From NCBI GenBank assembly GCA_964019415.1, contig OZ025873.1:2668982-2732981 (forward strand): 64,000 bases of DNA, in the 5' to 3' direction. The DNA comes from Ianthella basta. Lineage: Eukaryota; Porifera; Demospongiae; Verongiida; Ianthellidae. Positions 3,190 to 47,455 of this stretch are shown one piece after another. The position numbers and the translations under genes are program-made. The stretch's first letter is position 1, and each line of letters starts with the position of its first letter. The notes beneath the pieces are model-generated. The model was not told where the DNA came from. It did not search any database and was given only the letters and a program-made list of their open reading frames with translations.

Positions 3190-6100
3190 ATGGAAAAGTC
3201 ATACGACTACCATATTAATCTCGTTGTCCTTGGTGATACTGGTGTGGGGAGGACATGCCTTGTTGAGCGGTTTACAACGGACACCTTCACAATTGTTACG
3301 ACACCTACTATTGGTAAGATGACTTGGCCCCATTCTACACAATACATGATGTGCTATGGTACGTGGCAGAAAAAGTTAGCATGCAACAGGTGTAGTATGA
3401 ATACGGGTACGGGCTTACCTATTTACAATTATGGGCGTACCTACGTAGTTACCGTGTAAGCTCTAATTTTTGCGGGACTTTATTTTTGCGAATTCACAAA
3501 GCCATCAGCATACGTGAAATATATTCTTGCGAATATTTTGTGCTTACAGTTCCGGTACTTAAATACATTGCAAATACTACCAATATAAATATTCTGGTGA
3601 CCATTCGTGAAACTAAAATTGAGACTTACTCTTCCAAGCGGCGATTTGCGAAATTTTTGTCCCGCGAAAATTAGAGCTTACACGGTACAACTAGCTTACG
3701 GTTTTATTTATTTACAGTACAGGTGTGTTGATTACAGGTACAGGCGTAGTATGTACAGATACAGGTGTAGTACTCATGGGTAAGAGGGTACTGTGTATCA
3801 TTCCTTATTACAAGAAATAATAAAAATTTTCAACAAAAATAGCAAGGATGTAGGTATGGCACAAAAAGTACAGAAACAAGTAAAGGCTGTTACACAGTGG
3901 AGCATTAGCCATGGTCCCTACATGCAAGAATGCCGCACCTTATAGTCCTACACCCTTGAATGTAGGGACGATGGTTAATGCTCCACTGTGTAACAGCCTT
4001 TACTTGTTTCTGTACTTTTTTTGCCATACCTACATCCTTGCTATTTTGTTGAAAATTTTTATTATTTCTAGTTTTAGTCTATCGAGCTAAGACCTCTTTC
4101 GCATTTTCACGTAACCGGAAGTAACGGGCAAGGAAAGGCGAAAGAGGGTCTAGCAGAGGTCATTAATATTCATAATAAGATCTTTCGCACTTCGCAAGCA
4201 ACACGCACCACAGTCTGGTTTGCTAGACCGTCCCACCCAGGTAAACCGGCTACGATTGCTCTGCAGTGTAGCGAGTCTGTGCAAACAGTCAGTTAGCACA
4301 GTTAGGAACTGAGGATGGCCAAACCACTGAACTCTGTATGCGCTGTCTGCAAGTTGGCCATTCCTAAAGCAATTAAGTATCGCTTGCAGCGCGAGTTTTC
4401 CCAAGGAGGCAGCCCGACCAAGTTGTACCATCAGCTGAGAGGAGTTGCTGGAACTGAGTTGTCTGCAAGTCTGGGATCCAACTTCTTGTGCTTGTCATGC
4501 CGGGGTAAGCTTCTAGCGGTTGCGAATCAGAAGAAACGCTACAAAGAGTCAAGGAACTTCTTCGCAAGCTGCAGTACGTCTCTGCTCCCTCTCCGATGAG
4601 AGTAAGCCCTCAGAGATTGACTAGTCGCTCGCAGAAACGACCTCTGTTGTCTCAGGCTAAAAATGGAGTCTCCCCCTTTGCCAAAAGACAAGCTTCTGGT
4701 TCAGGGAGCACCAAAGAGCCATCAGCGACGCCTGTTTCTCGCCGCGAGTTATTTCCAGGAGGTTCAAGAATCCCTGTGTGCTCTACCATTTCGCGAGCAG
4801 CTCGAAGAAACACTGGGTGACTTGAGATAGCGTTCATCCACAAAGTGAAGAGCGCCACCATTACTGCTCGCTGCAACAAAACCGTCCGTGTTTAACTAAC
4901 GTAGAGGTGTCGACGAGGTGCCACTACTAGTTGGATGCAGCTAGTTGATCTGATTGGTCAATCGGCTATGAATATTAATGACCTCTGCTAGACCCTCTTT
5001 CACCTTTCCCTGCCCGTTACTTCTGGTTACGCAAAAACGCGAAAGAGGTCTAGCTCAATAGACTATTCTAGTTTCTATACTTTTTATGGTGTGCAAGCTG
5101 CACATGCTAAATGCCACTAGAGGACATCCATGCACGTTACAGTATAGGACCTTATTTCTGTAATCCTGGAGCTCGAGGTGTCAGCTATCTCCTAGCTTCC
5201 GCGCCAGCCCACCTAAGAGTTTAGAAACAGTGAACGGAAGTTAGCCGAGTACTAGTTAAAAATGGCGGGTCCACGGATGACCTTTTGAAACGACGCGCAA
5301 GCTAACTTTGGCCTAAGCCCTTGTCTCGTATACACCTGAAACGGCCTCCTGACGGTGTTGGCTAGCTTTTGGACAGAAAATGAAGGAACAGTAGGCGGAA
5401 AACTGCCGTTCTTCAACATCATCATAAAATGGCGTCTTGCGCGTAGTAACGCCTCCCGAAAGACTCGGTAACCCCAGCGTGTGAACAATACGCTTTCGGA
5501 GCCTATACTTCGAAAGAATACAGCTCGGTTAATTTTTAGTAGTTTTGTGTTCGAATTAGTTCGATAGCTAATTCTGTTCGTCAGTTACAGCTGGTGAAGA
5601 AGAATATGAAGAAGAAGAAGAATATGAAGACGAAAATGGATGTTTTTGAGTGTCATTTTTTCGCCGACAGACCACGTTCGCTTGCCTTCCAGGTCAGTTT
5701 AGTGTATGAATATTTCGTATTTAGCCCTACGAAGCCTCGTTTTGGCAGTTTTCGCCGCTTTTCGCGATTTCGTCCCTATACCAATGTAAGGTAAAGGGGG
5801 GTAATTCCGTAATGTATTGAGTTCAATGCCATAGAAAATGACGACGTAAGAAGCTACAGTCGTCCAATCTTGACTGGCAGAGCAACAACTTGTGTGGAAT
5901 ATCTGTACCTATTACGAGCCTACAACTCTTCCTCGTTCAAGTGCAGGACCTAGAAGTGTGTCGCCAATTGGAGTGGGGGTAATTCCGTAATTTCAGCAAA
6001 TTTTCAAAGCACACGAAGATAACTCTGGGAAGTGAAGCTGTGTTGAAGCTATTGCATGTTGTCAAGTAAGCCTCGTGTATTGGCTGCACGACAGTAGCAC

Positions 6101-8808
6101 CGATGTTCGCTATTGATGGAATGCGACTGAAACTTAGAGCATTGTCTATCACCTAAGATTAAGCCGCTTGCAAAAATTCATATACGGATTTCGGCGCATG
6201 CCCATCAGGCCCACAGAGGAGGCTGGTACTTGTGGTTAGCACTGGAGTGGCAGTGCTATAGTCACAGTTGATCGACGATGTATTGCAGGACTTCGCCCTT
6301 TCCCTTCATTCCAGCGAAGTGGATTGCGGAATTACCCCTATTACGGAATTACCCCCGTTTGCCTTATTGTGAATTCGAAACACCCTGTACCATCCCTACA
6401 TAGAGAGTACTATCGTACTCTGATATTTTATGTCAGTCTGTGAAGCTCTAACTAAGGCGAAGGCTGTGTGGTACGTGCAGTAGAGCAGAGAATCTTCTGT
6501 GATGAGGCAACGTCACTGGGACAATGAAATTTCAAATGTGGCAACTTTTTACAACTGCCTCACTTTCTGCATAGTAAGAGCTCTGTACAGACTAGTTGCT
6601 CAATGGGTAGCCATACTCGGAAACAACAATGGATTTTATATAGGAAACGAGGTTAGGGAACCTGTTCTTTAGTATTAGTTCTTAATACAGCCTTTATCTA
6701 GTGGATCGGGCCTCTAGCCAAATGTATAGCTTCTTTGGCTATGTGTACGTAGTACATGTACTCTCACCTGCTTCCTCCTGAACCAAAGATTCTAGCAGGA
6801 ATACCAGCAGTTGGGACTTCATTTACAACCTGTATGGTCCACATGTACACAGATTATCTACTGCACCAGTAGGACCACCTGTACGGGCATTCTAATCTGC
6901 TAATACAGGTGTACCAATTAACTTTTACATGCGAATGTACATGCGTAGTACGTTAACTTTTTTCTGCTACGTACCGTGTGTTAACATTGTGTGTTAGGGT
7001 CAAATATAGTTTTCCGACTGGTCTGGACTGGACCAATACATTAGATACAGTGGGTTAGGCTTAGAGTTAAGGGTAGGATACACATGCTCGTAAAGGAGTT
7101 ACCTTGTTTTGCCCCAGCTTCTCATCATATACACATTTTTGATGGAGTTGCTGTACTAACTTGACAGTATGAACAATGATAGTACTTGCTACAAAAGATG
7201 TTTCAATGATCAATGAAACAAGCTAAATACAAAGTGCCAACACTCACTAGATCTCTTACAACACTGCTACAGGTGCAATGGGTCCATCCCAAAATGACCA
7301 TGCACACAGGATAGGGGAGGGTACACAGGAAAATACAAGACAGGCACTTATCTGCAACACGTACAAAATACCCCTTAATTACCGCAGTTGCATACAGTTG
7401 CCTGTTTTGTCAGCTGGATTGCTACTAAGCTAGATCTAGCTAGTCTACAGTAGATAGTAGCTATTAGAAATATTTGAAATGGAAGTGTATTGCCATAGCT
7501 TAATGATGACTGGAACCCTAACCCCAACTGACCTGCCCTATCTAATGTATTGGCCTGGCCGGTGTGCATGGTCCAACAATTATACGCAGCCTGTGGTAGT
7601 GCTAGTGTATGAATGCATACACATACCTATGTATTGAGAGTGAACCCATGCAGGACGTCTGATGTAGGTGGTGAATTTCCTTTACAACACCTATCTGCTA
7701 TACTTTCCCTCTGTGCTCAATAAGGTGTAATTTGCAATATTTAATGTATTCTTTGTCCATGTGGCTGCATGTCTGTAGGTGCTGACTATAGAACACCCAT
7801 AGTGCAGATTGATGACAGGACAGTCCAGCTTTATATATGGTTAGTGCCCATTATAGACACTGCATTACAACTGTCAATAGTGGAAGAGATTATACACACA
7901 CACAGCAGATAACCACACTGTCTCTCTTCACGGCTGTTTGTTTGACTATAGTACATAGTAGGCTATAGCACTTCTGTTATAAGCTAGCTCCTCACCAGTA
8001 ACTGCACTCTACCATGCTGTGCAGGTGACTAGCTGCTGTTGATTGCTTTCATTGTAGGGAGGCAACTGGACAAGAGAGACTTCGCAGGATGAGTCTTTCT
8101 TATGTATCGAGGGCCAAGGTGAGCTGGTGGGTTTGCACAGACAGACTAACACACAGTCAGGTTTGTTCCATTCTGCTATCGTATACCTTGTTTACTCTTT
8201 GATGCATGGTAGGGGATTATACTGGTGTATGATGTCACAAGGAGCAGGTCATTTGGGAATATCCATGAATGGTACAGTGACATTAAGAAGGTGAGCAATC
8301 TTGCACAAGAGGTTTTGATAGAAGCACTTGTGACCATCAAGCTATGACCTGGTTACCTTATATGTGTATTAAAGCAGACTTACTCAAATATCACAAGGTT
8401 TCTAGGATGTAGTTCTTCATTTTGACATCTTTAGGACTGTTGCTGTTAGAGTTAGTGTTTATCTGTAGTTGATGGACATGGTTTTTTTTTCTACCCTTAT
8501 TGTATTATATTATCACCCAATGTATAGGTTTCTAGCAAAGGTTTATCTTGTCCGGTATGTTGTCTACCAATCCTTCCTCTCATTGCTCATTCCCCTCACT
8601 GCTCAGCATGCACAACCAGACATGAAGTTGATGATCCTCGGTAACAAGTGTGACCTTGAGGAGTCACGGGTGGTTACCGAGCAGGAGGGACGGATCCTAG
8701 CAGCTAAGTATGGGGCAGAGTTCTTTGAGACAAGTGCAAAGTCTGGTCAGAATGTGGCAGAGGCTATTGTTGCATTGGCCAAGAAGATTATAGACCAGAT
8801 GAGCATAG
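3190..8808 (+). CDS. Rab-like part of the fusion gene (exons 1-5)
   Basis: The five exons have lengths 124, 61, 61, 78 and 202 nt. The first four match exactly the exon lengths of the Rab array at 46-64 kb, so they share one origin. The start ATG at 3190 gives MEKSYDYHINLVVLGDTG. The switch I threonine (TPTIG) is kept; the P-loop Lys is replaced by Arg and DTAGQE is replaced by EATGQE. G4 (NKCDL) and G5 (SAKSG) are canonical. The closest known group by motif is Rab8/Rab10/Rab1. Intron 1 (3314-7778) is expanded by at least four transposable elements. Confidence 0.75.
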
Positions 8809-11800
8809 GTGAGTTATGGGGCTGGGACTGTACCACTGATGATTAAGACAGGTAGGTAAGGGTCCTCTAAGTAGAGGCATGCACCCAATAGAGGTAGAGG
8901 TGCCTGTGTGTCAGTTGTACAGCATTACAGATATTGCACTCTAATCTCGGTTTCCTTCATTAGTTAGCCCTGTCTCGTACCATGCATTGCCTTAGCAAGT
9001 TGATGTGTTGTGTCAGGAGGCATAATATACTAAACATGTTGTGCACTGTACTGTGGTGTCACTCTTCCTCAATCTGTCTTCTCTACAGAGGAGAGAGAAG
9101 AGAAAGAGGAGCAACGAAGTAAGTACTTGATGTATTGTCTTAGCAAGTTGGTGTGTTGTGTCATGTTGCATATTTGTATGGTATACACAATCATGTTGTA
9201 TTCTGTTCTGCATGTGTGTCACTCTTCCTCAATCTGTTTTCTGTGCAGAGAAGAGAGAGAAGCAAGAGAAGAAACGAAGTAAGTGCTTGATGCATTGTCC
9301 TAGCAAGTTGGTGTGTTGTGTCATGTGGCATATTAAATACACAGTCATGTTGTATTCTGTTTTGCATGTGTGTCACTCTTCCTCAATCTGTTTTCTGTGC
9401 AGAGAAGAGAGAGAAGCAAGATAAGAAACGAAGTAAGTGCTTGATGCATTGTCCTAGCAAGTTGGTGTGTTGTGTCATTTAGCATATTAAATACACAATC
9501 ATGTTGTATTCTGTTTTGCATGTGTGTCACTCTTCCTCAATCTGTTTTCTGTGCAGAGGAGAGAAAAGAGCAAGAGAAGCAACGAAGTAAGTGCGTAATG
9601 CATTGTCTTAGCAAGTTGGTGTGTTGTGTCATGTGGCCTATTTGTATGGTATACACAATCATGTTGTATTCTGTTTTGCATGTGTGTCACTCTTCCTCAA
9701 TCTGTTTTCTGTGCAGAGGAGAGAGAGAAGCAAGAGAAGAAACAAAGTAAGTGCTTGATGCATTGTCTTAGCAAGTTGGTGTGTAGTGTCATGTGGCCTA
9801 TTTGTATGGTATACACAATCATGTTGTCTTCTGTTCTGCATGTGTGTCACTTTTCCTCAATCTGTTTTCTGTGCAGAGGAGAGAGAGAAGCAACGAAGTG
9901 AGCACTTGTTGCCCCTAACCAAGGTTTTTACCTACCATTAGTGGCAAGTTGGTTTATCGTTGAACATACTGTGTACATGCCATCTTACAGTGTAGTGACA
10001 GGGAACCTTCTCCCTAGTCTGCATGTAGGTATGCTTCATTCTACACCACCAGTCAATAAGAATACACGTTTATAGCTCAAGGGGTTCTCCCCAATTGCAA
10101 CAATTCACCACATTCCCTAGCTATGCTCTAGTATTGCACATTACATTTTCTGCTTCTCTTAGAGTTTGAGTGGCGACAGGCATACAGTGAATCCCTCAGA
10201 CAGCATGGCTCAGTGTCAGTGGAGATCACACAATGCATCCTTGTTGGTCCCCCAGCAACTGGGAAGTCCACTCTGAAGCATTTCCTGGTGCATAATGCAC
10301 CTAAAGCCATCCAGACAAGCACGGCTGTGATGGACACACCTGAAGTAGTCCGCTATTCATCTGAGCAGTATGCAGTGGATGGAGGCACTTGTGTATGGCA
10401 GTCGGTTGAAGATGATGTCATGGGAAAATCTTTGTATGAATGTATTGCCAGCAAGGCATACAATGTGGGCCCAGAACTACCCCAAGAACATGGTGCTGCA
10501 TCTCACACAGATACAAAGAATACCCTACTTCAACGTGTTTCAGCACTGTTTCAAAGATTGAAGAAGCGCATCGGCGTGGGCATCGTAGCTACAAAGAAAA
10601 GCAGTGGCAGTGAGGTTGGCCATGGCAGTGAAGGTGTTGCTGATATGCTATATGCCATGAGAGAGAGATCTGGAGGTATTGAGCTGAGAGATGCCTCTTT
10701 CATCCATCTCCTCGACACTGGTGGCCAGCCATCTTTCCAGGATGCCCTCCCCCTCCTACTGGTTAGCCCCTGTACATACATCCAAGTATTCAATGCAGCC
10801 CATGACCTGGATCAGCCCGTCCCCATCACATACCGCCCAGATGAGCACACAGAGGAGGTCCTCTCAGCCAGTGCAGAGACTGGATGGGAAATGATGCTGC
10901 GTTCATTCTCCGGTATGCAGACCATGGCCCATAAGTGCTCCAAAGAGCTGGCCCAATTTCAGATGGAGGGAAGCCAATTACCGCAGTTCCGAATATTCAT
11001 GTTGGGCACACACAAGGATCAGCTGATCAAGGAAGGCAGGCATGAGGAAGCTGTCCAAAACATCAGTGAGCGCCTGAGTGAGTTGGAAGGAAAGCCATAT
11101 TATCATTGCATTAAGAGGGATCCAAATGGGCAGCCATTTTATCTGCTCAACAGTACTACAGATGAAGAAGGAGCCTACGTCAACAGGCTTCGTAGAAACC
11201 TCTCCAGTTCACAGGCCTCGTTCAAGCTTGCAGTCCCACTGAGGTGGTACGCCTGCAAACAGTACACTCACAACACTGCACAAAAATTCTTTCTGTTCGA
11301 AGACCTGAAGGCCATCTGCCTGAAGCACCAGTTCATTGATCCAAATGGTGCAAAGGAGCAGTTCCATTCCCTCCTGAAGCTGTTTTCACTCTTCGGCTTC
11401 TACGTCTTCTTCGAGCTGAAAGATGTCCCAGATGAGGCCAATTACATCTGCACCGACAAAGGGATATTCCTGAAGGAGGTATCAAAATTGCTTGCTGTGC
11501 AATTTCTTCAAGCCCCAAAATGCCATGCTGTGGATGTCTTCAAGCAACATGGCATCATCTCCAGCAACATGGAGGTCTTTGAGGAGCTAGGAATCATAGA
11601 AGAGGTGGAGCGAAGTTGGTTTCTTGCAGCTCTGCAGCATGTCGGGCTGTTGGCACGCTATGCATCACCCACCAAGCACTCCTCCTCCTACTTCATGCCA
11701 GCAGCCCTCCCTCAAGGGAAAACAAAGCTTCCAGACTGCAGCACTATGGCTTCTCTCTGTGTCACCTTCGAGTTCCATTCCCCTGACAGCCCCTTGGTCT

Positions 11801-13411
11801 ACACAGACCTCCCCCGAGGGATCTTTTGTCGACTTGCAGTGGAGCTCAGTAATGGTCCATGGACACCCATTCCAAAGGAAAGCGATCGCACCACTGTCAA
11901 ATTCTACTCAGAGGAGTTTGAGCTGTACCTCGCAGAAGCACCAGGATTCATCAGCCTCACTCCCGTCTTGGTGGAAGAGTTGGAAGGAAAGAACCCACTA
12001 GCAGAATTGCACAAGCTGTGCAGACGCATGTATGACACACTTCATAAGAGCATTGTTGTGTCAGCTGAGGGCGTGCTAGGGGACCAATTTTGCCAAACAG
12101 CCACGACTGTTTATGGGGTGGAATGTTACTGCAGAAAGGTGCCCCATCTGGCCACCCCAGTATCAGCAAAGGTGCGGACCCTGATCTGCCAAGCCACAAA
12201 GGAACGGCAGAGATGCCTAAGTCGGCAGCGAATTTGGTTCGTTCCAGTGGAAAGTACTAAGGTGAGAGGCTGAAATCAGTTTCAGTTAATAATACAGGGT
12301 GGAAAGAGAGGGGAGACCTGTGCCCCACTACATACATGGCACTTTGTCTGTTAAACCCTGGCAGAGCTAACTGCAGATTGTGTGACCATTCATGATTGTT
12401 CCTATGCATGGCCTCTATAGCCAACTAGCTTAGACTAAGTCTTCATTCCTTGTGGTTATGCATCATACATATCATTAAATGAGATGCCCCTCTTTGTGTA
12501 CTGTAGCTTGTGCAGGTAGACGGTGGCAACATGTGGGTCATGGAGGAGACTGGCTATCCCTCGAGTGACCCACCTCAAATGGGGCACCTGCAGCAGAAAG
12601 TACACGCTCAGCAGTCCCCCGCATGCTCTTTAGAGAGAACTTCTATGTCACTGAGAACAACTGGTACGTTGTTGTCCAGTCTGGGTGTGTGTGAGAAAGG
12701 GGACTCATACAGCTACGTATGTACATACAGTACCTGTCTGGTGTTGAGGGGACCATAACTAAGTTTCTTTACTTGTTAAGGAACCCTCTGTGTGTTGTAA
12801 TAGCATACTACATTGTCAAGTGATTGTGCTCACAGTGGACACGTTTCAGAAGTGTAGTCTTGCATTCCAAAGCTTGTGTGTGAGATGTGTCGGATGGTGA
12901 GCATGATTATGTGGTTGGGAATGTGGGTTAATATCATGTACATCTATACAGCATATTCCATTCCTTTACTTACAACCTCCACACCAGCAGATTCACCCCA
13001 GAGTGAGATGCTGACAGGCAATGGTGCTAATGACACCATCTTGTCACAGAATGTGTATGGTGAGTTAATCTGTTCATGTCAGTTGTGAGGAATGTGAATG
13101 TGAAGAGTCTTCGTGTCATTGCAGATCATCAAGAGCATCTCGTGCTCTTCAGAGTACATGTGAGCAGAACAGCTGCAGCCAAGGGGAGAGCCATTCTGGA
13201 AGGGGTGGGGCTTGACACAGCCACAATCGACACATGTTTCGAGGATCATCCTCAGCATGTAGTGGAAGTTGTACAAGCTGGACTGAAGACATGGTGTGGT
13301 GGCCAAGGAAACCAACCTCCCACCTGGGATGTGCTTCTCAGGGCAATGGAGTATGCTGAGGTCCCACAGCAGCACATTCAAGATCTAAAGACAGACCTTG
13401 GCCTTCACTGA
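3190..13411 (+). CDS. Rab-like GTPase / ROCO-like GTPase-COR / death-domain fusion protein
   Basis: Fifteen proposed exons: 3190-3313, 7779-7839, 8058-8118, 8213-8290, 8607-8808, mini-exons 9089-9118, 9249-9278, 9403-9432, 9557-9586, 9717-9746, 9877-9897, then 10163-12261, 12507-12663, 12991-13059, 13125-13411. Every border has AG/GT and all phases join, giving about 1102 residues. Residues 1-175 are a Rab fold, 176-232 a Lys/Glu/Arg-rich linker, about 261-515 a second GTPase (GPPATGKST, DTGGQP, GTHKD), followed by a COR-like region and a Cys-containing C-terminal part. The last about 95 residues are a death domain. In the Rab part the P-loop Lys is Arg (GDTGVGRT) and the G3 box reads EATGQE, while NKCD and SAK are intact, so nucleotide hydrolysis may be weak. 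Unlike its Rab paralogues, exon 5 ends in phase 1 and no LQS-stop exon follows, which supports the fusion. The alternative is two adjacent genes. Likely a cytoplasmic signalling scaffold; this role is inferred. Confidence 0.68.
3450..3687. mobile_element. MITE with terminal inverted repeats, TA target site
   Basis: The ends TACCGTGTAAGCTCTAAT and its reverse complement face each other, and the element is bounded by TA on both sides, as for Tc1/mariner-derived MITEs. It is about 238 bp with no coding capacity. A decayed relative appears near 40.05-40.16 kb. Confidence 0.8.
3812..4069. mobile_element. Long palindromic element (arms about 115 bp)
   Basis: The two halves are near-perfect reverse complements around a short centre near 3930-3955; the outer ends read AGAAATAATAAAAATTTT and its complement. 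It has no open frame and is probably a foldback or MITE-type element. A second element is inserted at its right edge. Confidence 0.8.
4075..5065. mobile_element. Non-autonomous DNA transposon, about 98-bp TIRs, 9-bp target duplication
   Basis: Terminal inverted repeats at 4075-4173 and 4967-5065 begin TAGTCTAT. The 9-bp sequence TTCTAGTTT flanks both ends (4066-4074 and 5066-5074). Long TIRs with a 9-bp duplication are typical of Mutator-like elements. The element sits at the right border of the palindrome at 3812-4069. No transposase is seen; it holds a small Cys-rich open frame. Confidence 0.82.
4315..4599 (+). CDS. Small cysteine-rich protein inside the 4075-5065 transposon
   Basis: An open frame of 94 codons beginning MAKPLNSVCAVCKLAIPK. 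It holds two C-x2-C pairs (CAVC near residue 9 and CLSC near residue 61), a spacing that could bind one zinc ion, with basic residues between, as in DNA-binding domains of transposon proteins. I do not recognise the family. It may be the N-terminal remnant of the transposase; the reading frame shifts near 4600, where a further basic stretch continues in another frame. Confidence 0.4.
   Translation: MAKPLNSVCAVCKLAIPKAIKYRLQREFSQGGSPTKLYHQLRGVAGTELSASLGSNFLCLSCRGKLLAVANQKKRYKESRNFFASCSTSLLPLR
5787..6366. mobile_element. MITE, TAAGGTAAA termini
   Basis: Starts TAAGGTAAAGGGGGGTAATT and ends with an imperfect reverse complement, with TA at both ends. The motif GGGGGTAATTCCGTAAT occurs again internally near 5970. 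A relative with the same first nine bases lies at 60536-61128 in a Rab intron. Confidence 0.65.
6367..7778 (+). other. Remaining part of intron 1 of the fusion gene
   Basis: No coding exon, RNA gene or clear repeat seen in this stretch. It ends in the acceptor TCTGTAG before exon 2. Confidence 0.5.
9065..9897 (+). repeat. Six tandem copies of a roughly 155-bp unit, each carrying one mini-exon
   Basis: Each unit holds the intron text GTGTGTCACTCTTCCTCAAT, a polypyrimidine-AG acceptor, a mini-exon of 30 nt (21 nt in the last copy) and GTAAGT or GTGAGC. Mini-exons lie at 9089-9118, 9249-9278, 9403-9432, 9557-9586, 9717-9746 and 9877-9897. All are phase 1-1 and encode charged decapeptides such as KEREKQEKKR. 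Copy number or exon skipping can change linker length by ten residues without breaking the frame. Confidence 0.82.
10163..12261 (+). CDS. ROCO-like GTPase-COR exon of the fusion gene
   Basis: One 2099-nt exon, phase 1 in and phase 0 out. It begins in frame after the last mini-exon with KFEWRQAYSESLRQHG and soon reaches a full P-loop (GPPATGKST). A G3 box reads DTGGQPSFQ and a G4-like box reads LGTHKDQ. A COR-like segment with conserved Trp and hydrophobic pattern follows (from about AVPLRWYACKQY to FMPAALPQ). The end holds Cys/His residues (YGVECYCRKVPH) before WFVPV. The same order occurs in the two other ROCO-like genes of the window. Confidence 0.85.
12507..13059 (+). CDS. Two linker exons between COR region and death domain
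   Basis: Exons 12507-12663 (157 nt, phase 0 to 1) and 12991-13059 (69 nt, phase 1-1). They encode a polar, Gln/Ser-rich linker with no recognised domain. Borders: CTGTAG before the first, GTACGT after it, CAGCAG before the second and GTGAGT after it. Confidence 0.6.
13125..13411 (+). CDS. Death-domain terminal exon of the fusion gene
   Basis: 287 nt, phase 1 in, ending at TGA 13409-13411. The 95 residues show the six-helix pattern of a death domain: ILEGVGLDTATIDTC, a mid-domain VVQAGLKTW, then PPTWDVLLRAMEYAEVPQQH. Such domains oligomerise with others of their kind in cell-death and NF-kB type signalling. Being C-terminal to a GTPase-COR unit is a known arrangement for invertebrate ROCO-like proteins. 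Confidence 0.75.
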
Positions 13412-14107
13412 AGGTATGTTAAGTTTGCCATTTAGTCTGTTGTTGGCAGTGACTGCATTGGGATACCATATGGCCAGAATATTGGTGCGTGAATATTTTT
13501 GGAAAATTTGGCAATCGAGCGCAGAATGGCCACATTTAAAATTTGAGCCAGTGTCGTTAATTACAAATTGTATAATTAGTTCATTAGTTGTGAAACATGC
13601 TCAGCAGCCCTGCATGGTTGAACCATTCTCAGCAGCACACTTGCCAGTCTGTGCCCACTAATCTGGAGTGTAGCTTGTTATACTTCCATTCTATTTGGTG
13701 ATTGACTCATTCCTGTTGGTATTGTCAAATTTCATGCAATGCTTCACTTCTTCATTCGCTGCCTTTAGGCCGTATTCATTAACGATGCGGATTTGCGGTT
13801 GTGCTTTCCACTACCCCCTTTCGTCAGGTACTTCAGCAAAGCCATACAATCCGCTGTGTAAGCTAGCTACATAGCATACTGTGCAAGTTTGCACAGAAGA
13901 AGAGACACTACCCATAATGAAGGGCTCTACAAACATAGCTGCCTGTTCGTTTGTTAGCCAGATGTGGCTTAACTACGTATGCCTAACTGCCTGTACGATG
14001 GTGTCATTGCTACTGACTCAAGGCAGCAGATGGCATAGGTAACTTAATGTATTACAGCAGATACTCAGGGAGGTGTGAGTTTCTGATTATGACATTATAC
14101 CTCTGAC

Positions 14108-17683: not shown

Positions 17684-20600
17684 CTGCAGAGAAAAGTGAG
17701 GATTGTAACACAATCTGCCAACATCCATTGTTAGTGTATAAATTGTCCCCACAGTCATGCCTGTGACTACAGTGACAGGGCATACATGTATAATGATATT
17801 TGTAGTGATGCCCACCCCTGGAGGGCTCAAATAGCATAATAAAACAACAACACACTCACCAGTTGTAGCAGCTGGTGGGGAAGGAGGGGTTGACTGACGT
17901 CGAACATGTTCTGTGAAGAAAGGAGTGCATGAACATGATACAGTATGTACAGTATGTGGGTATAGGTAGGTTAACACATTGAACAATTTTTCCTTGTACC
18001 AGGTAGCAAGGTCGAACAGGTGTGTATGCAATCCTCAACCAAGAAGAAGAAGCAGGTCAAACAGCCACCCATGCATAGCAGATGAGCTCAGGCCTGCCAT
18101 TTCCTCCATGAAGATTGTTATGAAATGCCACCACACATTTGTAGGTCAAGGAGAACCACCCGGAGGGGGTGGTAAGGTGACGGACGGCCTATACTGCTCT
18201 TTTATACTTAAACTCTCATTTTTCATTTACAGTCACACTGCAAATTGTCACAACTGCTTCCATTCAATTACACTTGCTAGCTCAATACAACCAATGACCC
18301 TTGCTCTCTCAACCTGTACTGACTGGAATCTACTTCATTATTACATTACTACTTGTTGCTGCTGTATGCAGTTAGCACTAGGCTCGCTGAGGCACCCCAC
18401 TAGAAATAGGTGCTCCTGCTACTTGCTAGTCTGACCTGCTGCGACCGTCCCAACAAGCGCCCGGGGGGTGGGTTAAGGGAGGGACGGTCTAGCGGCAATA
18501 GCGATTAGTTAACACCTGTTCGGCCAATCAGATGCGAGTACTGCGAATCGCGGCAATGATATTCATGACTTGTGGTTCGGTCCTTTGGCATTGGCGACTT
18601 CGTAGCAGATGATGGATCTTCAGCATTGATGGTCTGGTGAGGTGTGGCTGGCTCTCTACTCCACTTTGAGGCGGTCGTAGCTACAGTTTCGTCCCTGAAA
18701 AACATACCTGAATCGTGGAAATCTCTCCTCCGAGCTTCCTTCCGAGCCAACAGATCTTCCTCTGCTTTCTGTATGGCCATAAGTCACCAATAACAGGCCT
18801 TGCAGTGGTGTGCCTTTTCAAGCTCGCTCCAAGGGACGCTCACAATGGCTACTAGAGTTCGCCCGTTGCTGGTAAACACATGTTCCCTCAAGAATCAGTA
18901 CGATGCTCCACTCGAGAGGGGAACTTTACAAATTCGACAAAAGTCGTCCAATCTCGGCATAGGAGTCTAGGAGTCTGAATCTCGAGGGAAGAAACTGGAT
19001 TGCACCGGGCTCTAAAGACAATGTCACCGTTCTCGGCATGCATGTACACGTACGTAGCGCTAATTGATATAACAGTGGTGTCAAGGTGTTAACTAATTGC
19101 TATTGCTGCTAGACCGTCCCTTCCCTTCCACGCCTGTAGGCGTTTACGTGGGACGGTCTAGCAAGCCTAACTAGCTACTTGCACACATTGTAACCACTAC
19201 CACAAGGGAGTCAGCACCAGCACAGCACAAGTTGAAGGAGGATGCAACCAAAGCATGGCTTACAAATCAGTGGGCAGTGTCACAGTGCATAGTAGTCACA
19301 GTCAGTGCTCAGCATTAATAGCCCAGTTCACAGGATGCGTAAACCAGGACACCATAGCGATATTTGTAGTGATGCCCACCTCTGGAGGGCTCAAATAACA
19401 TAATAAAACAACAACACACTCACCAGTTTTCGCAGCTAGTGGGGAAGGAGGGGTTGACTGACGTCGAACATGTTCTGTGAAGAAAGGAGTGCATGATCAT
19501 GATACAGTATGTACAGTATGTGGGTATAGGTAGGTTAGGGCATAGAACAATTTTTACTTGGTACCTGGTAGCCAGCTCGAACATGTTTGTATGCAATCCT
19601 CAACCAAGAAGAAGTTGGTCAAACGACCACCCATAGCGGATGAACTCAGGCCTGTGATTTCCTCAAGATTGTCATGAAATGCCACCACACATTTGTAGGT
19701 CAAGGAGAACCACCCGAAGGGGGTGGTAAGGTGACGGACGGCCTATACTGCTCTTTTATACTTAAACTCTCGTTTTCCGTTCCCAGTCACACTGCAAATT
19801 GTGAAAACCGCTTCCATTCAATTACACTTGCTAGTTCAATACAACCAATGACCCTTGCTCTCTCAACCTGTACTGACTGGAATCCATTCCACTTGTCTAT
19901 TGCATTACTACTTGTTGCCACAGTATGTAGTTAGCACTAGACTCGCTGAGGCACCCCACTAAAGGTAGGCACTCCTGCTACTAGCACACATTGTAACCAC
20001 TACTGCAAGTTGCAAGGGAGTCAGCACCAGCACAGCACAAGTTGAAGGGGGATGCAACCAAAGCATGGCTTACAAATCAGTTTTCCTTGGGCATTGTCAT
20101 AGGGCATAGTAGTCACAGTCAGTGCCTAGCATTAATAGCCCAATTCACAGGACGTGTAAACCAGGACACCATAGAAGATGGAGTAAAGTAGATTTATGAC
20201 ATTATGACCGATCAATGTTACTGCCAATTCAAATGGAATAGGATGTGGTTGACCGGACCTTTACTAGGGCATGGTACATAATACTGCTACATGTGAAAGT
20301 GGTGTTATGCATCTCTAAAATGCAGCACGTCCACCAACACACAGACTCACCACGGGCCCGTGCACAGAGCTCGAGTTTCATCATGTCACTGGAGGGTGAC
20401 AGTGGGCAGGTTTGCACTGACACCATCTACGGTATTAGAAAAAAGCAATTAAAAGGCAAACAAATGTCTATTTTGTGCACTGTCACTGTGACCCTTCTGT
20501 GATACTACACATACCTTCTCCAAATCATCCTTCTTCCGAAACCAAATCTCCTGCAGTGGAGTTGCGCGCTGGGCACAGTTAGAGCACTCCAAGACAGGAT

Positions 20601-22100
20601 GGCGCTTCCCATCCTTATATGCGGCAAAGGTCTTCACGGCGGGGGCATCCTTCTTTCCACATGTGTGGTAAAACCCATAGCGAATACTGGTTTCGGCCAA
20701 TTTCAGACGACGTAGGATGATGTCTGCGGACCTGACCACGTTTTTATTTATTCTAATGCATGCACTCTGTAGGTCTTCTATCTTCTCCTCATCAGGTATG
20801 GGCTCCCAGCTATCAACCTCCAATTCCTGAATGCCAATCTCGATGCAGAAATCTTGCTCAACTAAATGGATTCGAGTGGTGTTGTTCTTGATTCGCACAT
20901 AATGCTGCTCCATAACCATGATCTCATACTGTCGGTCCTCTGACAGAAACTCGGTTACAAAAACCGCAAAGAAAAATGATGGCAACAAGTATTCGGGTTC
21001 CACTGAAAACTGGTTTGAACCCTTGAAGGTCATCAGGAGTGGGGGAACGCTGTACTCAGCAGGCGGTGGGCTATTAGGAGTACCAGCCTTCAGGCCAATG
21101 ACAAAAACAAAATCGGACTGCACCTTAACCACGAGACCCAAGTCAATGCAGATGCGCTGGAACCACTGTTTATGATTTGCACCAGAGTCAATGGATGCAT
21201 CTGTACGTGAGAAGAGGTCGTGGATGGTGGTACGCTCTCGTTTTTCTTTGAGCTCGAGGACCACATCAAAGAGCCTGCACAGGTACTGGGGCTGCACCAG
21301 GACAACCTTATCAGCTTCTTCACCTTCCTTCACGGAGTGGTAAAAGATGAAGCCATAATTGTGCAGGAACTTCAGGAACGCATCAAATTTTAGGCCGGCT
21401 ATGTCATCATTGGGTGATATAGCAGCCATTTTGGCTTTGAGATCATCGTACAGAATGCATGGAACATTTTTGAGCTCCTCCTGTAGCTTGTGGTGGTACC
21501 TTATCCACCTGCGGACCTCAAACCCATGCCTAGAGCAGCAGCTTTGAATCTCACGCGAAAGATCAGTGCCACTCACAGACAAATCCTCTCCGTTAACCGC
21601 CCAGAATGGCTCGTCACCGACTGGCTTACTGATCAGCCCGTTATAGGGCATCTTCTCCAGCCTCTCCTTCAGCTCCTGGGTGAACTTGCTTCTATCATTG
21701 GCTTCATCAGCATGCATGCCCACTAGAAACACCACTGGCATCTCGTTTCCGCTCTCACGACGATATGACGAGAGGGTGTATACATTCTTCATCACATTGT
21801 GAATCATACCGAGGGACTGCTTCGCAGCGCTGGAGCGCAGATCAAAGGCAACAAGATAGATGCAGAAAATAGGTGTCACTAGCATTGGCAGATGGTATAG
21901 CTGCTGGTTTGGGACATCGATGTCCAGCAACACGTGGGAGGTGTCAGCTTCATCCCATTCACTTATTGTGTGTAGGGCTTGTCGTTTTGGTGATGTCACG
22001 CTGAAACAGTTTACCCATCTATCCCACTTCTCTGGTGAGGATGGTACAGTCTCAGGCTTTAATGTGCGGATAGTAACACATTTCGTTACTTTCATTTGGG
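17391..22100 (-). CDS. ROCO-like protein with degenerate GTPase and C-terminal CARD-like domain
   Basis: Proposed minus-strand exons: 22100-20515 (1586 nt, phase 1 to 0), 20426-20351 (76 nt, phase 0 to 1), mini-exon 19474-19424 (51 nt, 1-1), mini-exon 17910-17860 (51 nt, 1-1), and 17683-17391 ending in a stop. The big exon begins QMKVTKCVTIRTLKPET, where the paralogues have a GPP-x3-GK-[ST/T] P-loop; here it is absent. G3 reads DIDVPNQQ instead of DTGGQ and G4 reads GMHADE. The COR-like region (WIRYHHKLQEELKNV onward) and a C-terminal C-x2-C region before EIWF are kept. The final exon is a CARD-like fold. The start is uncertain: ATG at 22095, or a 10-nt first exon at 24779-24770. Probably a pseudo-GTPase scaffold. 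Confidence 0.65.
18427..19173. mobile_element. DNA transposon insertion, 9-bp target duplication, empty site visible in a paralogous copy
   Basis: The 9-bp GCTACTTGC occurs on both sides (18418-18426 and 19174-19182). The duplicate at 1466-1485 reads straight through one copy of this 9-mer without the insert, which proves an insertion. The ends begin TAGT and share GACCGTCCC; longer inner parts (TTAACACC... with its complement) also pair imperfectly. Ends and duplication length match the element at 4075-5065, so one Mutator-like family is likely. Confidence 0.85.
18505..18780 (-). CDS. Small open frame within the 18427-19173 transposon
   Basis: 91 codons starting MAIQKAEEDLLARKEARRRD; charged and without a recognised domain. 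It could be a remnant of an element-encoded protein, or chance. Confidence 0.2.
   Translation of the reverse strand: MAIQKAEEDLLARKEARRRDFHDSGMFFRDETVATTASKWSREPATPHQTINAEDPSSATKSPMPKDRTTSHEYHCRDSQYSHLIGRTGVN
20515..22100 (-). CDS. Degenerate GTPase-COR exon
   Basis: The 528-codon body of the ROCO-CARD gene. Acceptor ATGCAG at its 5' end, donor GTATGT after KKDDLEK. Aligned by eye with the exon at 10163-12261 and with 25322-27960, it lacks about 100 residues around the P-loop. COR and the C-terminal zinc-like part (CSNCAQRATPLQEIWF) are complete. Confidence 0.82.
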
Positions 22101-24769
22101 CTGCATGTTACGAAACACAAATACAAAGGATAAAAGTGATATACGTACAATCTCATGCACTGAAGCTCACATTACGTAGACTAACAAGAAAGCCTGAATA
22201 CAGGCCAGTTGTGGTGCAATGGATGCCACGAGTTGAGTGCCAGCAAGAATAGCAATAAAGTAGACACAGCTGCACAAGGACCATACGAGAAGTTGAACAA
22301 AGTGTAATGGAGAGTGCAGTTGGTGCAGGTATAATCTGACATCACCGCAATGTGATATATGTTGTTTCTGTGGAGTTACTTAGCAATCACGCATACTTGG
22401 GTCCATGCACAAGGAAATTAGAATGTAGAGTGAATTCCACAGAAAAAAGGGGCGTTAGCTACATGTGCTGTATACATGTGGTGTATAGTAATGAGTTACT
22501 ATTACTTGTTCCTATGCTTTTCACTGGAGATTCTTAAAAGCCTTCAAATTTTAAAAGAAACATGTAATACACTAGTACGTACATTAGGGAATACACACTA
22601 GACTCAATAGCTGACATGGTCCCGATCGAAGGGTTCAGCAGCTGCAGTTTCAAAGCATACAGCTGCAGCTGCCGAATCATACGTCACAAATGAAGAGTAC
22701 CCTGTTTTGTACTGTTAATTATAATCATGAAGTGTACTGTGCTATATACAGGTCGATGGTGGCCCTGCGTGAAGGTCCATTGTGGGAACACTTCCTGTAT
22801 ATATTGTCTTGAATGCTGGCAATATTCCAGTCGGCTGCACTGTCAGCAGTTAATTGGGGGTAGCAGGCAAGAAGCTCTGTGCTCCAATGGCTGTAGCTTA
22901 TATAAAGCTGACCTTAAACTCTCATACTACCTCTCTCGCTATGGAGGTGCAATGTACACATCTACACTTGCAACAGATGATGTTGGATGTGTACACACAT
23001 GAGTCGATGTTCAGTAGGCCTTTTAACAGTCTCCCAATTTGTTGGCTTTCCAAACCTGTCTCGCAATACTGTAATTCATCTTCTATATCACTACAGTACA
23101 TTGGCCCAACCATAGAGCAGCCACAACAACTGCTCAGTGACAACTGCTCAACCCATATATGCATGGCATGTGCAAACTGTAAACTGAGAGGCCCTGGAAG
23201 TGCATGTGTGGGGGGAGGGGACAAAGGAGTGGTCTAGACAATTTGCACATGATTTGCAACCAATGAATGAAGCTTAATGTCCTGAAAAGATATGCTACAG
23301 CCAAGAACTTCGGTAATAATATTCATAGTCTAAGAGTGCAATTGCATAGAACCTAAGAATTGTATAGCCGACACCAGAGTTCTTCAACTTTCTTGCCATC
23401 ACCTCAACTCAATAGAGTATGTCCAGCCACCTCAAAGGTATGGTGAAGTGGGGAAATTTGGACTATCATTTCAACATAGCAACTATTTTTACATTGCAAT
23501 GTGCATAAACATGGCTCATACATGGAAGACAAAGTTACTGTCTTAAAGCGTATGCACTCCAGTACGCCAACCCATACGTAAGTAGCTATAAGAATGTACA
23601 CCCAGTCTGTGCACAGGCCTGTATGTAACCCGTTGTACAGCACACTCCCCACAAGGAAAATATTATGTATGTGAAAGCGTCCATTGCAAGAATGACTACC
23701 TAGCCCTTTGATAGTCATCATGCTGGCACGCTTCCACCATTTTAATGGCATCATTTGTAAGGCGTGGTCCAGGCCCATACATCAGTCATGAGGGTTAACA
23801 TATTTCAGACTTACTCTGGCTTCCTACCTGTTCCCGCCCATCAGCCAGCCAAATCAGTCAAGACAGAGGTAGCTATATTACCCAACACGAATTAACCATG
23901 CGTGCTTAAAATCTGCTTCAGTTCAAGCACGTTGTCCTGCCCATTACTCTTAGCAAAGCTGCTTGCATTGTAATGAATGCCCTAGTTTACTTCACACAAT
24001 CCCACGATAAATTTGTTATGTGCCGTGGCATAGGCTATTGATGTTACTTCCAACACTACATATAGTGTTCATTGACAAATAACCCATCAGGTTAGCAGGA
24101 AGCCAATTTTCGTAGCCCTAAACGATGGCAATTTTGTGAACAGTGCAATCACAGTTGGCCTGAAATAAGCGAAGCGACGAAGAAGAAAAGCTGGAAGCTT
24201 TTATCATGAACCCTTTCCTGGGACTTGTCCATGTAGCGAGAAAACGGGCAACTATGAACATGTACCACTGGGCGTGACGTCTTCGGCCACTTCCGGCTTT
24301 GGCCATGTCACATCTGAGCCGCCTACTCAACGGGCTGTTAGAAGGGGCGCTGTGCAACCGCGCAGCGCCTGTTCTACCGCGTCTAACACCATCTCAGGTA
24401 TCTTTTAGAAGGCGTCTCCCGCAAAATAGACGTTCTACAGCAATATATGCTGACAAGTGGATACGACAAAGAACGCAGTGAAACACTCTGCAAAAGACGT
24501 CAACGTCCTTCAGGACAAGCTCCAAACCCCTTCCTATCGGCACAAACTCTTACTGCACATGTTAACACACTCATCGCCATACAAACGAGTACATCACTCT
24601 CGATATTAACCACCAAAGTCAAGCTATTTCCCCCCAGTACTGCGGCATAGCCATATACAACGAAAGCACCAAAACTGCACGAAGCAACCAGCTCAACATG
24701 TGCGCATATGACCAACAACATATATATGATCGATGATCAATGATAACAACTTTATTTAACTTAACATAC
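22101..24769. other. Stretch without a supported coding exon
   Basis: No domain-bearing frame seen. On the plus strand a short frame at 24305-24397 begins MSHLSRLLNGLLEGALCNRA, is Arg-rich, and ends at a possible donor (CAGGTATCT). It might be the first exon of a mitochondrial-type protein, but no following exon was found before the opposing gene at 25.3 kb. Confidence 0.4.
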
Positions 24770-25321: not shown

Positions 25322-27960
25322 CTACTTAAACCACTCAAATTGTCCACGCACTACCTTCTGTTCTTCCAATGTCTTGAGACATTGTCCCCAGAATCTACGA
25401 CCCGCTAGTCGAAATGCAGCAATGTGTGAATCATCACCGGGATGTATCTTACATGGAAACCCCCACACCAATGATGTTTTCAATACCTCAGTGGAGCCGC
25501 TGTAGATGTTGGTGAATACATTGCCGATGCTCTCATGTATTCCCTCCTTGACTGTACGCAGCTGGCCAGTCTTGGTTAGTTCTTGCACAGATTCCTCTGA
25601 ATCCAATCTGACTTCAATACACGATTTTTGTTCTATCAAGTGCACCCTTCCTGTGAATCCCTCGTGTGTGAAGGCAACATGAGTGCGTCCAAATGGGATC
25701 ACAGTCCAGCCTAACCCGGTCACCAGCTCACTGATCAAACAGCAATACAGAGAGCTGGGTAGGTAACACACCTTCATGACTGTCTGTGACACCACTGTGA
25801 TGAAGACTGGGGCAGCACTTCCAGGAATCTCCATTGATTGAGTTGTCTCTGGCAAGGCAGCTGGGACCACATAACTGTCCAAATCACTCAACCTTGCAAC
25901 AATTCTAAGGTCTGACAGTATCAAGAGAATCTGGTCAATGTGTTGGTGGCCAATGGATCTGTTCTGACAACGTGCCTTGATACTCTCTACAGTCTTGTCC
26001 ACTTCCTCTCTGACATGGAGCAAATCTCCCTTCCTTTCGGAATCACCCAGCAGTGCCTCCGCAGTACTCACTAGGAAGTGAACCTGTCTACCTATAAACA
26101 GCCGTCTTTTGGCTTCCAAAGTTGCAGCATCCTGGCTTTCTTCAGGGTCTAACTTGTATTTCTCTGCCAGATCCTTCATTCTTTGGCGTAGCAACTCAAG
26201 TACCACTTCAGCAGGCTCCTGGTGTAGCTTTGCCATAGTCTCCTCTACTTCCTGCAGCACTTCCTCCAAGTTTTGCTGCATGCTTCTATCGTTGTCTTCC
26301 ATTCTTTGTAAAACACTGCTCTTTTTCACAATCCTTCCTCCTGGCTCCAGTTTCTGTTGCTGAATTTCACCTTCACTCACATCATCCTCACCATGCCTGA
26401 CCTCAGTGGTGGCACCTTGGGCTTGGTGTAGGTCCTCATTGATTTCCTCCCTTGCAGCCATCAGGAAGTCTGAGGTAGCTGAAAAGAGGTAATCTGGGTC
26501 TATGAACACCAGGCTGTCCTCCTTTCTGCAGCCACTGGGCACCTTGTGGTAGAAGAGGCTCAATATGTGGAACAGCCATAGCAAGGTGTCTAGGTCTTCA
26601 CTGGGCGACTCTTCCTTGACATAGCCTCTTTTACGGGCCTCCTCCAGCAGCTTTGAATACTTGCAGCAGCGCACTTCCATGCCATCCATGACCACCTTCA
26701 GCAGCATCCAAGACAGAGGTACCTTCACAGACATCTCCATGGATTTGTCCTGGACCTTCAACCGAAGGGTGGAGATGTACTTCTTGTCCTCTTCTTCCTG
26801 CTCCATACCCGCCAGGGTGTTGTCCACAGCCCAGAATGACCGACCTTCAGTGTCATATTGAACAAACTGGCGATAAGATTTGTCGCCAATCTCCTCCTCA
26901 ATCATCCCATCTACAGCCTTCAGAAATTGCTCGTCTCCTGCAGGTATACAGTCCTTATGTGTGCCCACAATGAAGATTTTGGGTGCTTCTGGGTGGAATT
27001 GCAGATGATCCTTGGCCTGAGGGGGATTCATCCCAAATGCACAGATGCTCTCCAGCGGGTGCTGGATGACTGCACTCCTGAAGTATTCAAGCTGCTTCTG
27101 GCCATTCATCTGGGAGAAGTCCTTTAGACTGAACACCACTAAGTACACGCTTGGTGTGGTGATGAGGACAGGGTGGATCTCGTGATAGATGACTTGTCCC
27201 CCTGTGTCAATAAAGTGGATGAGCTGAGTTTCACCAAGGACCTTTCCCTTCCTGTCCTTCAGAAATTCATTCAGGGCTTCACTGCTGCATGCACTAGCCA
27301 AGGCTTGCACACCTTGCATAAGTGTTCCAGTTTTCAGATCACTGGCTGAGGTATTAGTGGGCATGACTGAGGGTGGGGAACCATGGTGTGTGGGCGAGTG
27401 GAGGGCTCCATCATGTATGGCTGTGGGTGGGGCTCCGACTGTGGTTGTGGCTAGGTTCCCATTGACCGTGGTTGTGGCTGGGTTCCCATCAAGTGTGGTT
27501 GTAGCCTGGTTTCCATTGAGTGTGGGTGGGGATAGGGTAGAATCGTATGTGGTTGTGGGCGGGCTTTCATCGAGTGTGGCTGTGGGCGTGGCTTCACCAG
27601 ATGTGTCTCTGGGTGGGGAACCAAGTGTGGGGCTAGGCGGAGTAACATCAATTGTTGGGATGGTGATAACAGCCCTGATCACTTTCCCGCGCTGCTCCTC
27701 TTCTGAGACCAATTTCCAGAGATCTTCAGCTCCTCCCACCTTTTGCCCCACACACTCCACCCACTCCGGTGCCTCCATGACATCTGTGCTGACTGTCCCC
27801 CCCTTCACGTCCCACTTCTGTCCAGTGAGGAGGTGTTTGAGACAGGTCTTGCCTTTGCGGGGAGGGCCAATTGTCGTACACTTTGTGATCTTCAGGGTGA
27901 CAGTGGCCTGGTTACGAACCACGACAGCATAGCGTTCTTCAAAGGTATGTAAGTCTTCAC
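25322..27960 (-). CDS. ROCO-like GTPase-COR exon with coiled-coil insertion
   Basis: 2639 nt open to a stop, 879 codons plus split first codon. It opens GEDLHTFEERYAVVVRNQ and has a full P-loop (GPPRKGKT), a G3 box (DTGGQVIYHE) and G4 (VGTHKD). Between P-loop and G3 lies a Pro/Thr-rich tract of about 100 residues encoded by a decaying repeat. After the COR-like part (VPLSWMLLKVVMDGME) there is a Glu/Gln-rich stretch of about 120 residues (EEVLQEVEETMAKLHQEPAE) that looks like a coiled coil and is absent from the two paralogues. It ends FEWFK. Likely an active GTP-binding switch in a large cytosolic scaffold. Confidence 0.85.
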
Positions 27961-46806: not shown

Positions 46807-47389
46807 ACATTTGTGCTTGTGTGATGTATGGAATTTAATTTGACCTTGCATGCTGTGTGTGTATGTGTGGTAGCAGATTCATTCATGTTCACATTTAGCA
46901 CACAATCCTATCCACACTGCATGTGGCACAGACAGGAATGTTGTAGCTAGTAGCTGGGACAGTAAGGTGGCACTGTCCAGCTGTGTGGTGTGGTGTGGTG
47001 TTGTGTGGTGGTGCAGGGAAGACTGTAAAGCAAATCTTAATTCTCCCCCAGTGTCTGAGATTTCTGGTGAGTTATCAAATCTTTGTTTCTATCATACAAG
47101 TGTTTGTGTCTTGTGCGCTATAGTGCACAGGCTGTTGTCCCCCAGGGTACAACAAGCACTCATTCCAGACCACACCCGTGTGCGCTTGGCAGTATTGTAA
47201 TTTGTGCGAGGCTGGGAGCAATTAAAGGGTAATAATTATTATGATGAAATGTCCAGTGCTGACCGCCCTTGTGAGGCGCTTACCGAGGCGCTTACTGGGA
47301 CATCTAGGTAGACAAATGGTCTAGGGAGCTAGACTACATTCAGGAAGTAGTGGAGCTAAGGTAGGCGCTAGTCCCAAGAAGCTAAGCCA

Positions 47390-47455
47390 ATCTCTTCAGA
47401 GCCAGAGAATCGACATCTCTGTTAGTAAGCCTTAGCTACTGCATTGAGGAAGAAA
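47390..47455 (+). promoter_or_regulatory. Conserved 5' leader of array copy 2
   Basis: The run ending GTTAGTAAGCCTTAGCTACT then GCATTGAGGAAGAAA before the ATG recurs almost base for base at 53955-54018 before copy 4. The end GAAGAAA/GGAAGAAA before ATGGC is shared by all array copies, so leader and start context were duplicated with the genes. Confidence 0.45.

Follow-up and report, generated by a model that had tools for sequence, protein, structure and literature searches.

A candidate sponge gene joining a Rab-like domain, a ROCO-like unit and a death domain in one predicted chain

We analysed a 64,000-nucleotide stretch of DNA from the sponge Ianthella basta (contig OZ025873.1, here C6, C6:2668982-2732981; hereafter the window), taken from a genome of 209 Mb in 96 contigs, with attention to a candidate fusion gene near its start. 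Rebuilding of the exons base by base from the window letters yielded a model of 15 exons at positions 3190-13411 of the plus strand, comprising 3300 nt, that is, 1099 residues plus stop, with GT-AG borders at 14 of 14 introns and a frame free of inner stops. The predicted chain consists, in this order, of a Rab8-like domain, a charged linker encoded by six frame-neutral mini-exons, a Roc-COR-like unit and a death domain. The exons of the model are the following.

3190-3313, plus strand: Rab exon 1, with the start codon, the P-loop GDTGVGRT (Lys to Arg) and alpha1
7779-7839, plus strand: Rab exon 2, end of switch I and interswitch
8058-8118, plus strand: Rab exon 3, switch II (EATGQE for DTAGQE) and alpha2; the most divergent exon across the three copies described below
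8213-8290, plus strand: Rab exon 4, beta4 to alpha3
8607-8808, plus strand: Rab exon 5, NKCD and ETSAK motifs, ending in phase 1
9089-9118, plus strand: mini-exon 1, 30 nt, charged linker
9249-9278, plus strand: mini-exon 2, 30 nt
9403-9432, plus strand: mini-exon 3, 30 nt
9557-9586, plus strand: mini-exon 4, 30 nt
9717-9746, plus strand: mini-exon 5, 30 nt
9877-9897, plus strand: mini-exon 6, 21 nt, a length present in all three copies
10163-12261, plus strand: ROCO-like exon, Roc GTPase (GPPATGKST, DTGGQ, THKD) followed by a COR-like region
12516-12663, plus strand: linker exon after the ROCO unit
12991-13059, plus strand: linker exon preceding the death domain
13125-13411, plus strand: death-domain exon, including the stop codon

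Along this path the Rab exons end in phase 1, the mini-exons keep that phase and the 2099-nt ROCO-like exon starts in it, with two short exons and a 287-nt exon leading to a TGA stop at 13409-13411. The open 15-exon model confirms the original prediction of five Rab exons, six mini-exons and a ROCO-like exon on the same strand with the frame kept at every junction. That prediction had further opposed the phase-1 end of Rab exon 5 to paralogues, in an array of Rab genes farther along the window, said to end in phase 0 before an LQS-stop exon. The phase-1 end is indeed present; exon 5 of array Rabs A-D does end in phase 0 (..DKKD) and is followed by a short stop exon, although the full description suits only three of the six paralogues, since the stop exon encodes LQS in A to C but LQN in D. 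Six short stop exons of this type lie behind neighbouring Rab exons and none in the fused copy; between 8809 and 10163 none was found with up to 2 mismatches allowed. Within intron 1 of the fused Rab, a segment with self-complementary ends (4080-5060) resembles an inserted mobile element.

Directly upstream of the window, the same contig carries the cassette twice more, in copies named par87 and par83 by their ROCO identity. In both, five Rab exons lead through the mini-exon(s) to the ROCO exon and on to the two exons that follow it, with order and phases unchanged, GT-AG at all junctions, no stops and every mini-exon length a multiple of 3, and the mini-exons, of 30 or 21 nt, number 6, 2 and 1 across the three copies. 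In par87 the death exon is present too and the frame ends after 1057 residues, whereas the sequence of par83 reads N directly after exon 14 (C6 ~2663982-2668980), leaving the death exon visible in two of three copies. That the three cassettes were duplicated as a unit, with the frame kept despite the change in linker length, is a strong argument for one gene, so that the Rab, ROCO-like and death parts, as read here from genomic sequence, very probably belong to a single transcription unit. The co-duplicated copies, two of them with the death exon, likewise lend support to the earlier claim that all three parts share one chain. Chance adjacency of Rab and ROCO is rejected, given that the arrangement is kept in three cassettes. 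The non-coding DNA next to the 3' end of the ROCO exon (window 12262-12515) is 99% identical to that of par87 (113/114 and 119/120), which, the Rab half being far more diverged, suggests gene conversion of the 3' half between the window copy and par87. A donor-like GTATGT two bases past the stop (window 13412-13420), also present in the 87% copy, perhaps marks an intron in the 3' untranslated region.

The first 175 residues matched Pfam Ras in the scan of the whole model (E 3.4e-52, 176.7 bits, positions 11-170, 160 positions matched), and their best solved relative in a PDB search was Rab8A (6.7e-48). In a Rab tree, the fused Rabs formed a clade of their own (100/100) whose nearest relatives stayed unplaced, with 9 of 14 inner branches open. 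Each fused Rab is altered in at least one motif of the nucleotide cycle, and differently in each copy. The window copy reads GDTGVGRT (K to R) and EATGQE; the P-loop of par87 is shorter by one residue and its switch II motif is DTPGQE; par83 combines GDCDVGKT with DTPRQE. None of them therefore retains the intact motif set of Rab GTPases, and these changes would be expected, from work on small GTPases, to impair nucleotide binding or hydrolysis. The NKCD/NRCD and ETSA motifs of exon 5 are comparatively conserved among the fused Rabs. No prenylation cysteines were found: in each of the three copies the Rab end passes into the charged linker, and the protein ends visible in the window copy and par87 (..DLGLH) are devoid of a cysteine motif. 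At the switch II threonine of Rab8A that is phosphorylated by LRRK2, which we placed by assumed Rab8A numbering, the three copies have Arg, Thr and Gly, and an LRRK2-type phosphosite is unsupported. Import of exons from a distant Rab by gene conversion is disfavoured by synonymous divergence (dS), which is 0.06-0.155 in exons 1-4 as compared with 0.67-0.93 between array and fused Rabs.

What is new here is the manner in which this Rab part evolves: it is under diversifying selection and changes faster than its non-coding flanks, most of all in the switch regions. We compared each exon of the three copies with both its 120-bp flanks (introns; for exon 1, the 5' side). Exons 1-4 were less alike than both flanks in 11 of 12 exon/pair comparisons, and exon 3, encoding switch II, was 64-72% identical between flanks that are 90-98% identical. 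Pooled over exons 1-4, non-synonymous differences per site reached 0.266, 0.186 and 0.215 in the three pairs versus 0.081, 0.082 and 0.062 in the flanks (Fisher p 1.8e-13, 5.5e-6 and 1.3e-11), and their excess over synonymous differences was significant in two pairs (0.017 and 0.0012). In a three-taxon codon model, the ratio of non-synonymous to synonymous rates (omega) was 3.40 (p 1.7e-4) in exons 1-4, 2.02 (p 0.0064) across the Rab as a whole, 0.80 (not significant) in exon 5 and 0.56 (p 5.3e-6) in the ROCO exon, the last of these indicating purifying selection. When exons 1-4 were split further, omega reached 4.83 (p 3.8e-4) in switch I together with switch II to alpha3 and 2.27 (p 0.11) in what remained. 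Residues vary accordingly along the domain, within region limits set from general Rab topology: 9/12 in switch I, 17/21 in switch II-alpha2 and 15/26 in beta4-alpha3, as against 4/8 in the P-loop, 5/16 in the interswitch and 19/67 in exon 5. As a control, six standalone array Rabs gave no triple out of 20 significantly above 1, with a median omega of 0.92.

The mini-exons, of 30, 30, 30, 30, 30 and 21 nt, encode only E, R, K, Q and D and sit in a tandem array (9056-9893; units of ~154-160 bp, 91% matches), the duplication of which explains their even spacing. The five 30-nt mini-exons are 85.3% alike versus 94.2% for their introns, with 0 versus 36 gap cells, and show the same inversion, coding sequence more diverged than intron, as Rab exons 1-4. 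A whole-genome search with the repeat unit retrieved it from the three cassette loci (6+2+1 places) and nowhere else, apart from four stretches of 35-44 bases that match its intron end and acceptor. These partial matches, at C6 8135659, 8182886, 8406189 and 8406900 (minus strand), lie 4-14 kb upstream of ROCO exons in the interval C6 8.13-8.41 Mb and share their strand. No Rab was found near these four matches in the genome-wide Rab listings; their position ahead of ROCO exons with no listed Rab hints that the mini-exon may have come from the ROCO side.

Assignment of the ROCO-like exon was made through its relatives. Among 8000 candidates scored, 372 fell at E <=0.001, of which the best 120 were listed, and the window member with 67 of those 120 made up profile A1; at least 80 matching stretches occur in the sponge's own genome. 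Pfam Roc was recognised in 64 of 68 aligned homologues at E <=0.1 (best 4.1e-5). The Roc motifs listed above are intact in the window copy, over whose ROCO part the whole-model Pfam scan returned only P-loop matches below cut-off. Two more ROCO-like frames lie on the minus strand of the window: one at 25322-27997, scoring 99.8% by profile comparison with the ROCO family, and an open reading frame (ORF) at 20449-22107, scoring 93.7% against profile A1 over the post-Roc part and matching COR-A at E 0.0012, below its cut-off. Profile A5, which includes both frames, matched 4wnr_A, presumably an archaeal Roco structure, at E 0.0027 just after the Roc part. PDB searches returned 0 matches for the ROCO exon alone, nothing below 0.07 and no 4wnr_A for profile A1, and nothing below 1.8 for the ORF; a scan of NCBIfam yielded nothing above cut-off. 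Judged by its relatives, the exon encodes a Roc GTPase, with a putative COR region behind it.

The death exon has at least 150 scored relatives in the genome. Profiles A2 and A3 were built from 18 and 25 loci, L049 and L071 (stop-bearing rows) being among those left out. A death profile of 26 rows (window plus 25 paralogues) matched CRADD at 3.3e-5 and FADD at 0.09, whereas the CRADD match was weak (0.1) with the 19 close rows only; Pfam Death was recognised in 10 of the 26 rows (best 4e-7). The Pfam scan of the whole model found no kinase domain, that is, none of the N-terminal kinase that marks DAPK-type proteins.

Upstream sequence was examined for six other ROCO exons. Kinase exons precede the one at C6:7539804, a CARD exon that at C11:7021577 (Pfam 4.4e-5, at cut-off) and ankyrin repeats that at C5:2124363; both the kinase and the CARD exons have phase-1 donors. 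C10:2491369 is preceded by two Ras frames of one exon each and by a segment that resembles CCCH to the eye but for which Pfam gave nothing; at C6:8249545, no upstream frame stood out by eye, no domain scan having been made there. The nearest recognisable exons ahead of C11:7007039 are Rab-like (match at C11:7001687, 5 kb upstream), the last of them reaching a stop if unspliced, and no CARD or mini-exon-like unit was found between these two positions. Rab-like exons, one with a stop, also lie further upstream than the CARD exon of C11:7021577. A Rab-ROCO union as a general feature of the family is unsupported: 3 of 81 Rab exon-5-like matches fall within 3 kb before a ROCO exon, and all three belong to the cassette cluster. 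A "1032-aa Rab frame" on C5 proved to be an artefact of an N run. On C11, ~6.90-7.21 Mb is a large Ras/Rab-like exon array that holds two ROCO exons, the last 4.4 kb of which are 99.9% identical to each other.

Parts of the architecture have counterparts in systems that we compared through excerpts of the published accounts. Trichoplax adhaerens has at least 17 ROCO genes with CARD, death and other domains (Civiero 2014, PMC4104024), and in three of the proteins a Ras-like domain stands N-terminal of ROC, the presence of two GTPase domains in one protein being remarked upon there (PMC4104024). They share with the cassette this placement in one chain and an expanded ROCO family using CARD and death domains; however, the domain is termed Ras-like, not Rab, our comparison is by description, without sequence comparison, and the excerpted account mentions for those three proteins neither degenerate motifs, selection, mini-exon linkers nor a death domain (PMC4104024). 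The original prediction held the architecture to be undescribed, which gives way as regards a Ras-like domain ahead of ROC and stands as regards a Rab-type domain with ROCO and a death domain, of which excerpts of the open-licence literature contained no description. Its wording of "two different GTPases" is right for the sequences, one Rab-like and one Roc, but may mislead on function, all three fused Rabs being motif-altered. It had called for a proteome search for Rab with Roc/COR and Death. A protein search with the Rab part, among proteins of ~604-1923 residues, returned six matches out of 499 candidates, none with COR-A, COR-B or Death among its precomputed domains; a search of this kind depends on exact words in common and would overlook distant relatives.

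Large Rabs (RASEF/Rab45, Rab44) carry their Rab domain C-terminally in a long multidomain protein; the cassette shares the setting, with its Rab domain N-terminal and followed by ROCO and death parts. The DAPK1 group of Roco proteins holds a death domain (PMC6337361), and like DAPK1-type proteins (kinase, Roc-COR, death) the cassette places a Roc-COR-like unit before a death domain in a predicted animal protein, but with a Rab-like domain instead of the kinase. Brown algal ROCOs show diversifying selection and exon shuffling in their recognition part (PMC11378527). These LRR-ROCO candidate immune receptors resemble the cassettes in family expansion, a diversifying N-terminal part and tandem multiplication of small exons, whereas their recognition part is LRR in a simple LRR-ROC-COR layout with no Rab in the excerpted account (PMC11378527), and the exons multiplied here encode a linker. 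Integrated decoys of plant NLRs (PMC4246468, PMC5067614, PMC8294853), which place a domain resembling a host target within a receptor and undergo adaptive change there, would be a parallel if the cassette encodes a single receptor protein; in the sponge, by contrast, the chassis is ROCO-death, the host is an animal and a bait function is only inferred. The sponge Amphimedon has large death-fold expansions, and COR proteins with LRRs occur in bacteria (PMC8195603). In the excerpted text of a paper on NLRs of Dysidea avara, the whole words ROC and Rab are absent and the COR domain is named once, in a legend (PMC12909245).

We tentatively propose, at rather less than even probability, that the cassettes belong to a family of ROCO-death sensors in which a pseudo-Rab serves as the variable recognition (bait) surface. 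The Rab-like domain would neither cycle any longer nor anchor to membranes; as recognition face or bait, it would display a version of the Rab switch surface that keeps diversifying. Engagement would be relayed by the linker, pictured as a helical rod, to Roc-COR, where the intact GTPase motifs would set a nucleotide-dependent dimer or conformational switch; this, in turn, would cluster the C-terminal death domains and recruit CRADD/FADD-like adaptors, leading to death or inflammatory signalling. Because some other ROCO exons have kinase, CARD or ankyrin exons upstream, the ROCO-death chassis may accept different N-terminal modules in exchange, the Rab among them; in favour of this, all 30 ROCO exons checked (L009-L038, some near-identical, the window's included) have an AG at a phase-1-compatible position. 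Rabs are modified by proteins of Legionella and Salmonella, in one case at switch II, as excerpts of the literature report, which would make imitation of a Rab sensible as bait. Taken whole, the account of a cassette structured as read and working as an intracellular sensor with a Rab bait stands, in our estimate, just short of an even chance. Its extension to an animal counterpart of the integrated decoy, in which the Rab is a crippled bait, N-terminal modules (Rab, kinase, CARD, perhaps ankyrin) are swapped through the phase-1 junction and changes in the number of 30-nt mini-exons adjust the distance from bait to chassis, is conceivable and on the doubtful side.

The Ras-like domain might instead be the output of the protein, as modelled by Civiero 2014 for Trichoplax, where Roc-COR acts as a nucleotide-dependent dimerisation device and the Ras-like domain binds effectors; the model was stated for an arrangement with the Ras-like domain likewise ahead of ROC (PMC4104024). 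The comparatively conserved NKCD/NRCD and ETSA motifs of exon 5 fit this, and change in the switch regions could mirror a changing choice of effectors. Yet an active switch would hardly be expected to have its P-loop or DTAGQE altered in all three copies, each time differently; an output is already at hand in the death domain; and omega above 1 in the switch segments would be unusual for an effector interface, all of which leaves this model unlikely. Quite unlikely, too, is a role of the Rab part in localisation, in which it would bring the ROCO protein to Rab effectors or to a particular compartment as a covalent version of Rab29-LRRK2 or Rab8/10-LRRK2: the Rab end continues as linker, a cysteine motif is absent from both visible protein ends, the position of the LRRK2-site threonine (by the assumed numbering) is not kept across the copies and the fusion model has no kinase domain, even if the closest solved Rab, Rab8A, is of the group that works with LRRK2 in mammals (PMC6337361).

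A further way to read the locus is as two adjacent genes. One would be a Rab gene that has lost its stop exon or has it at another place; the other would be a ROCO-death gene, driven by a promoter of its own, to which the mini-exons would belong unless they are not spliced as modelled. A tandem repeat copies its splice sites regardless, four partial units occur on C6 upstream of ROCO exons with no listed Rab, intron retention after Rab exon 5 would yield a short Rab, and the next Rab genes are separate. However, order, phase 1 and splice sites are kept in three co-duplicated cassettes, no alternative stop exon was found in the interval searched, and the mini-exons hold a constant length, free of gap cells where their introns have 36, which renders two genes decidedly improbable. 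A Rab part that recognises nothing and is merely carried along while it decays would account for the lost motifs and for the shortened P-loop of the 87% copy, but relaxation gives non-synonymous divergence (dN) near the neutral rate, not 2.3-3.5 times flank divergence, and the Rab exon frames and splice sites are intact in all three copies; we consider such a remnant highly improbable.

Several points count against the sensor with a Rab bait. The selection test stands on three copies, between which gene conversion would violate the model; the splits into exons 1-4 and into switch segments were both chosen after the data had been seen; the window-par83 pair alone was non-significant versus synonymous sites (Fisher 0.24, bootstrap 0.17); and one of the array Rabs used as control, F, has a doubtful exon 2 acceptor, which reads GT as modelled. 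Conservation of the chassis applies to the ROCO exon and not to the death exon, where dN (0.089) is close to dS (0.079) in two copies and no conservation is visible. The window's own ROCO exon has no Pfam match at E 0.1 and its own death exon none at E 1, both assignments coming from relatives, and COR-A and COR-B each appeared, weakly, in 1 of 68 homologues. The count of phase-1-compatible AGs at the 30 ROCO exons was read by hand, with no chance level computed; the ankyrin exon showed phase-0 donors only, and the splicing of the candidate kinase, CARD and ankyrin modules to ROCO exons is a prediction. The rod-like form of the linker is suggested by its composition only, and the proteins that the bait would engage, those binding or modifying Rabs, for example factors of engulfed microbes, are putative ligands.

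If the bait proposal is right, the cassettes would represent an animal family of intracellular receptors that sense attacks on vesicle traffic through imitation of a Rab and signal through death domains, built on the GTPase-COR core of LRRK2 and DAPK1. They would then offer a concrete, testable case for the role of ROCO expansions in simple animals and for integrated decoys in animals as in plants, with a Rab8-like domain and a ROCO unit, partners in trans in mammals, linked covalently.

The array of Rab8-like genes mentioned above, A-F plus a partial one, occupies window 46113-63999. Its members strongly conserve exon 5 and vary in exons 1-4, and their ends, where seen, read for example DKKD-LQS, without prenylation cysteines. 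Rab F runs off the window, and the switch II motifs are changed in both E and F. In Rab E (62410-62620), an apparent extra base before the exon 5 donor would shift the phase.

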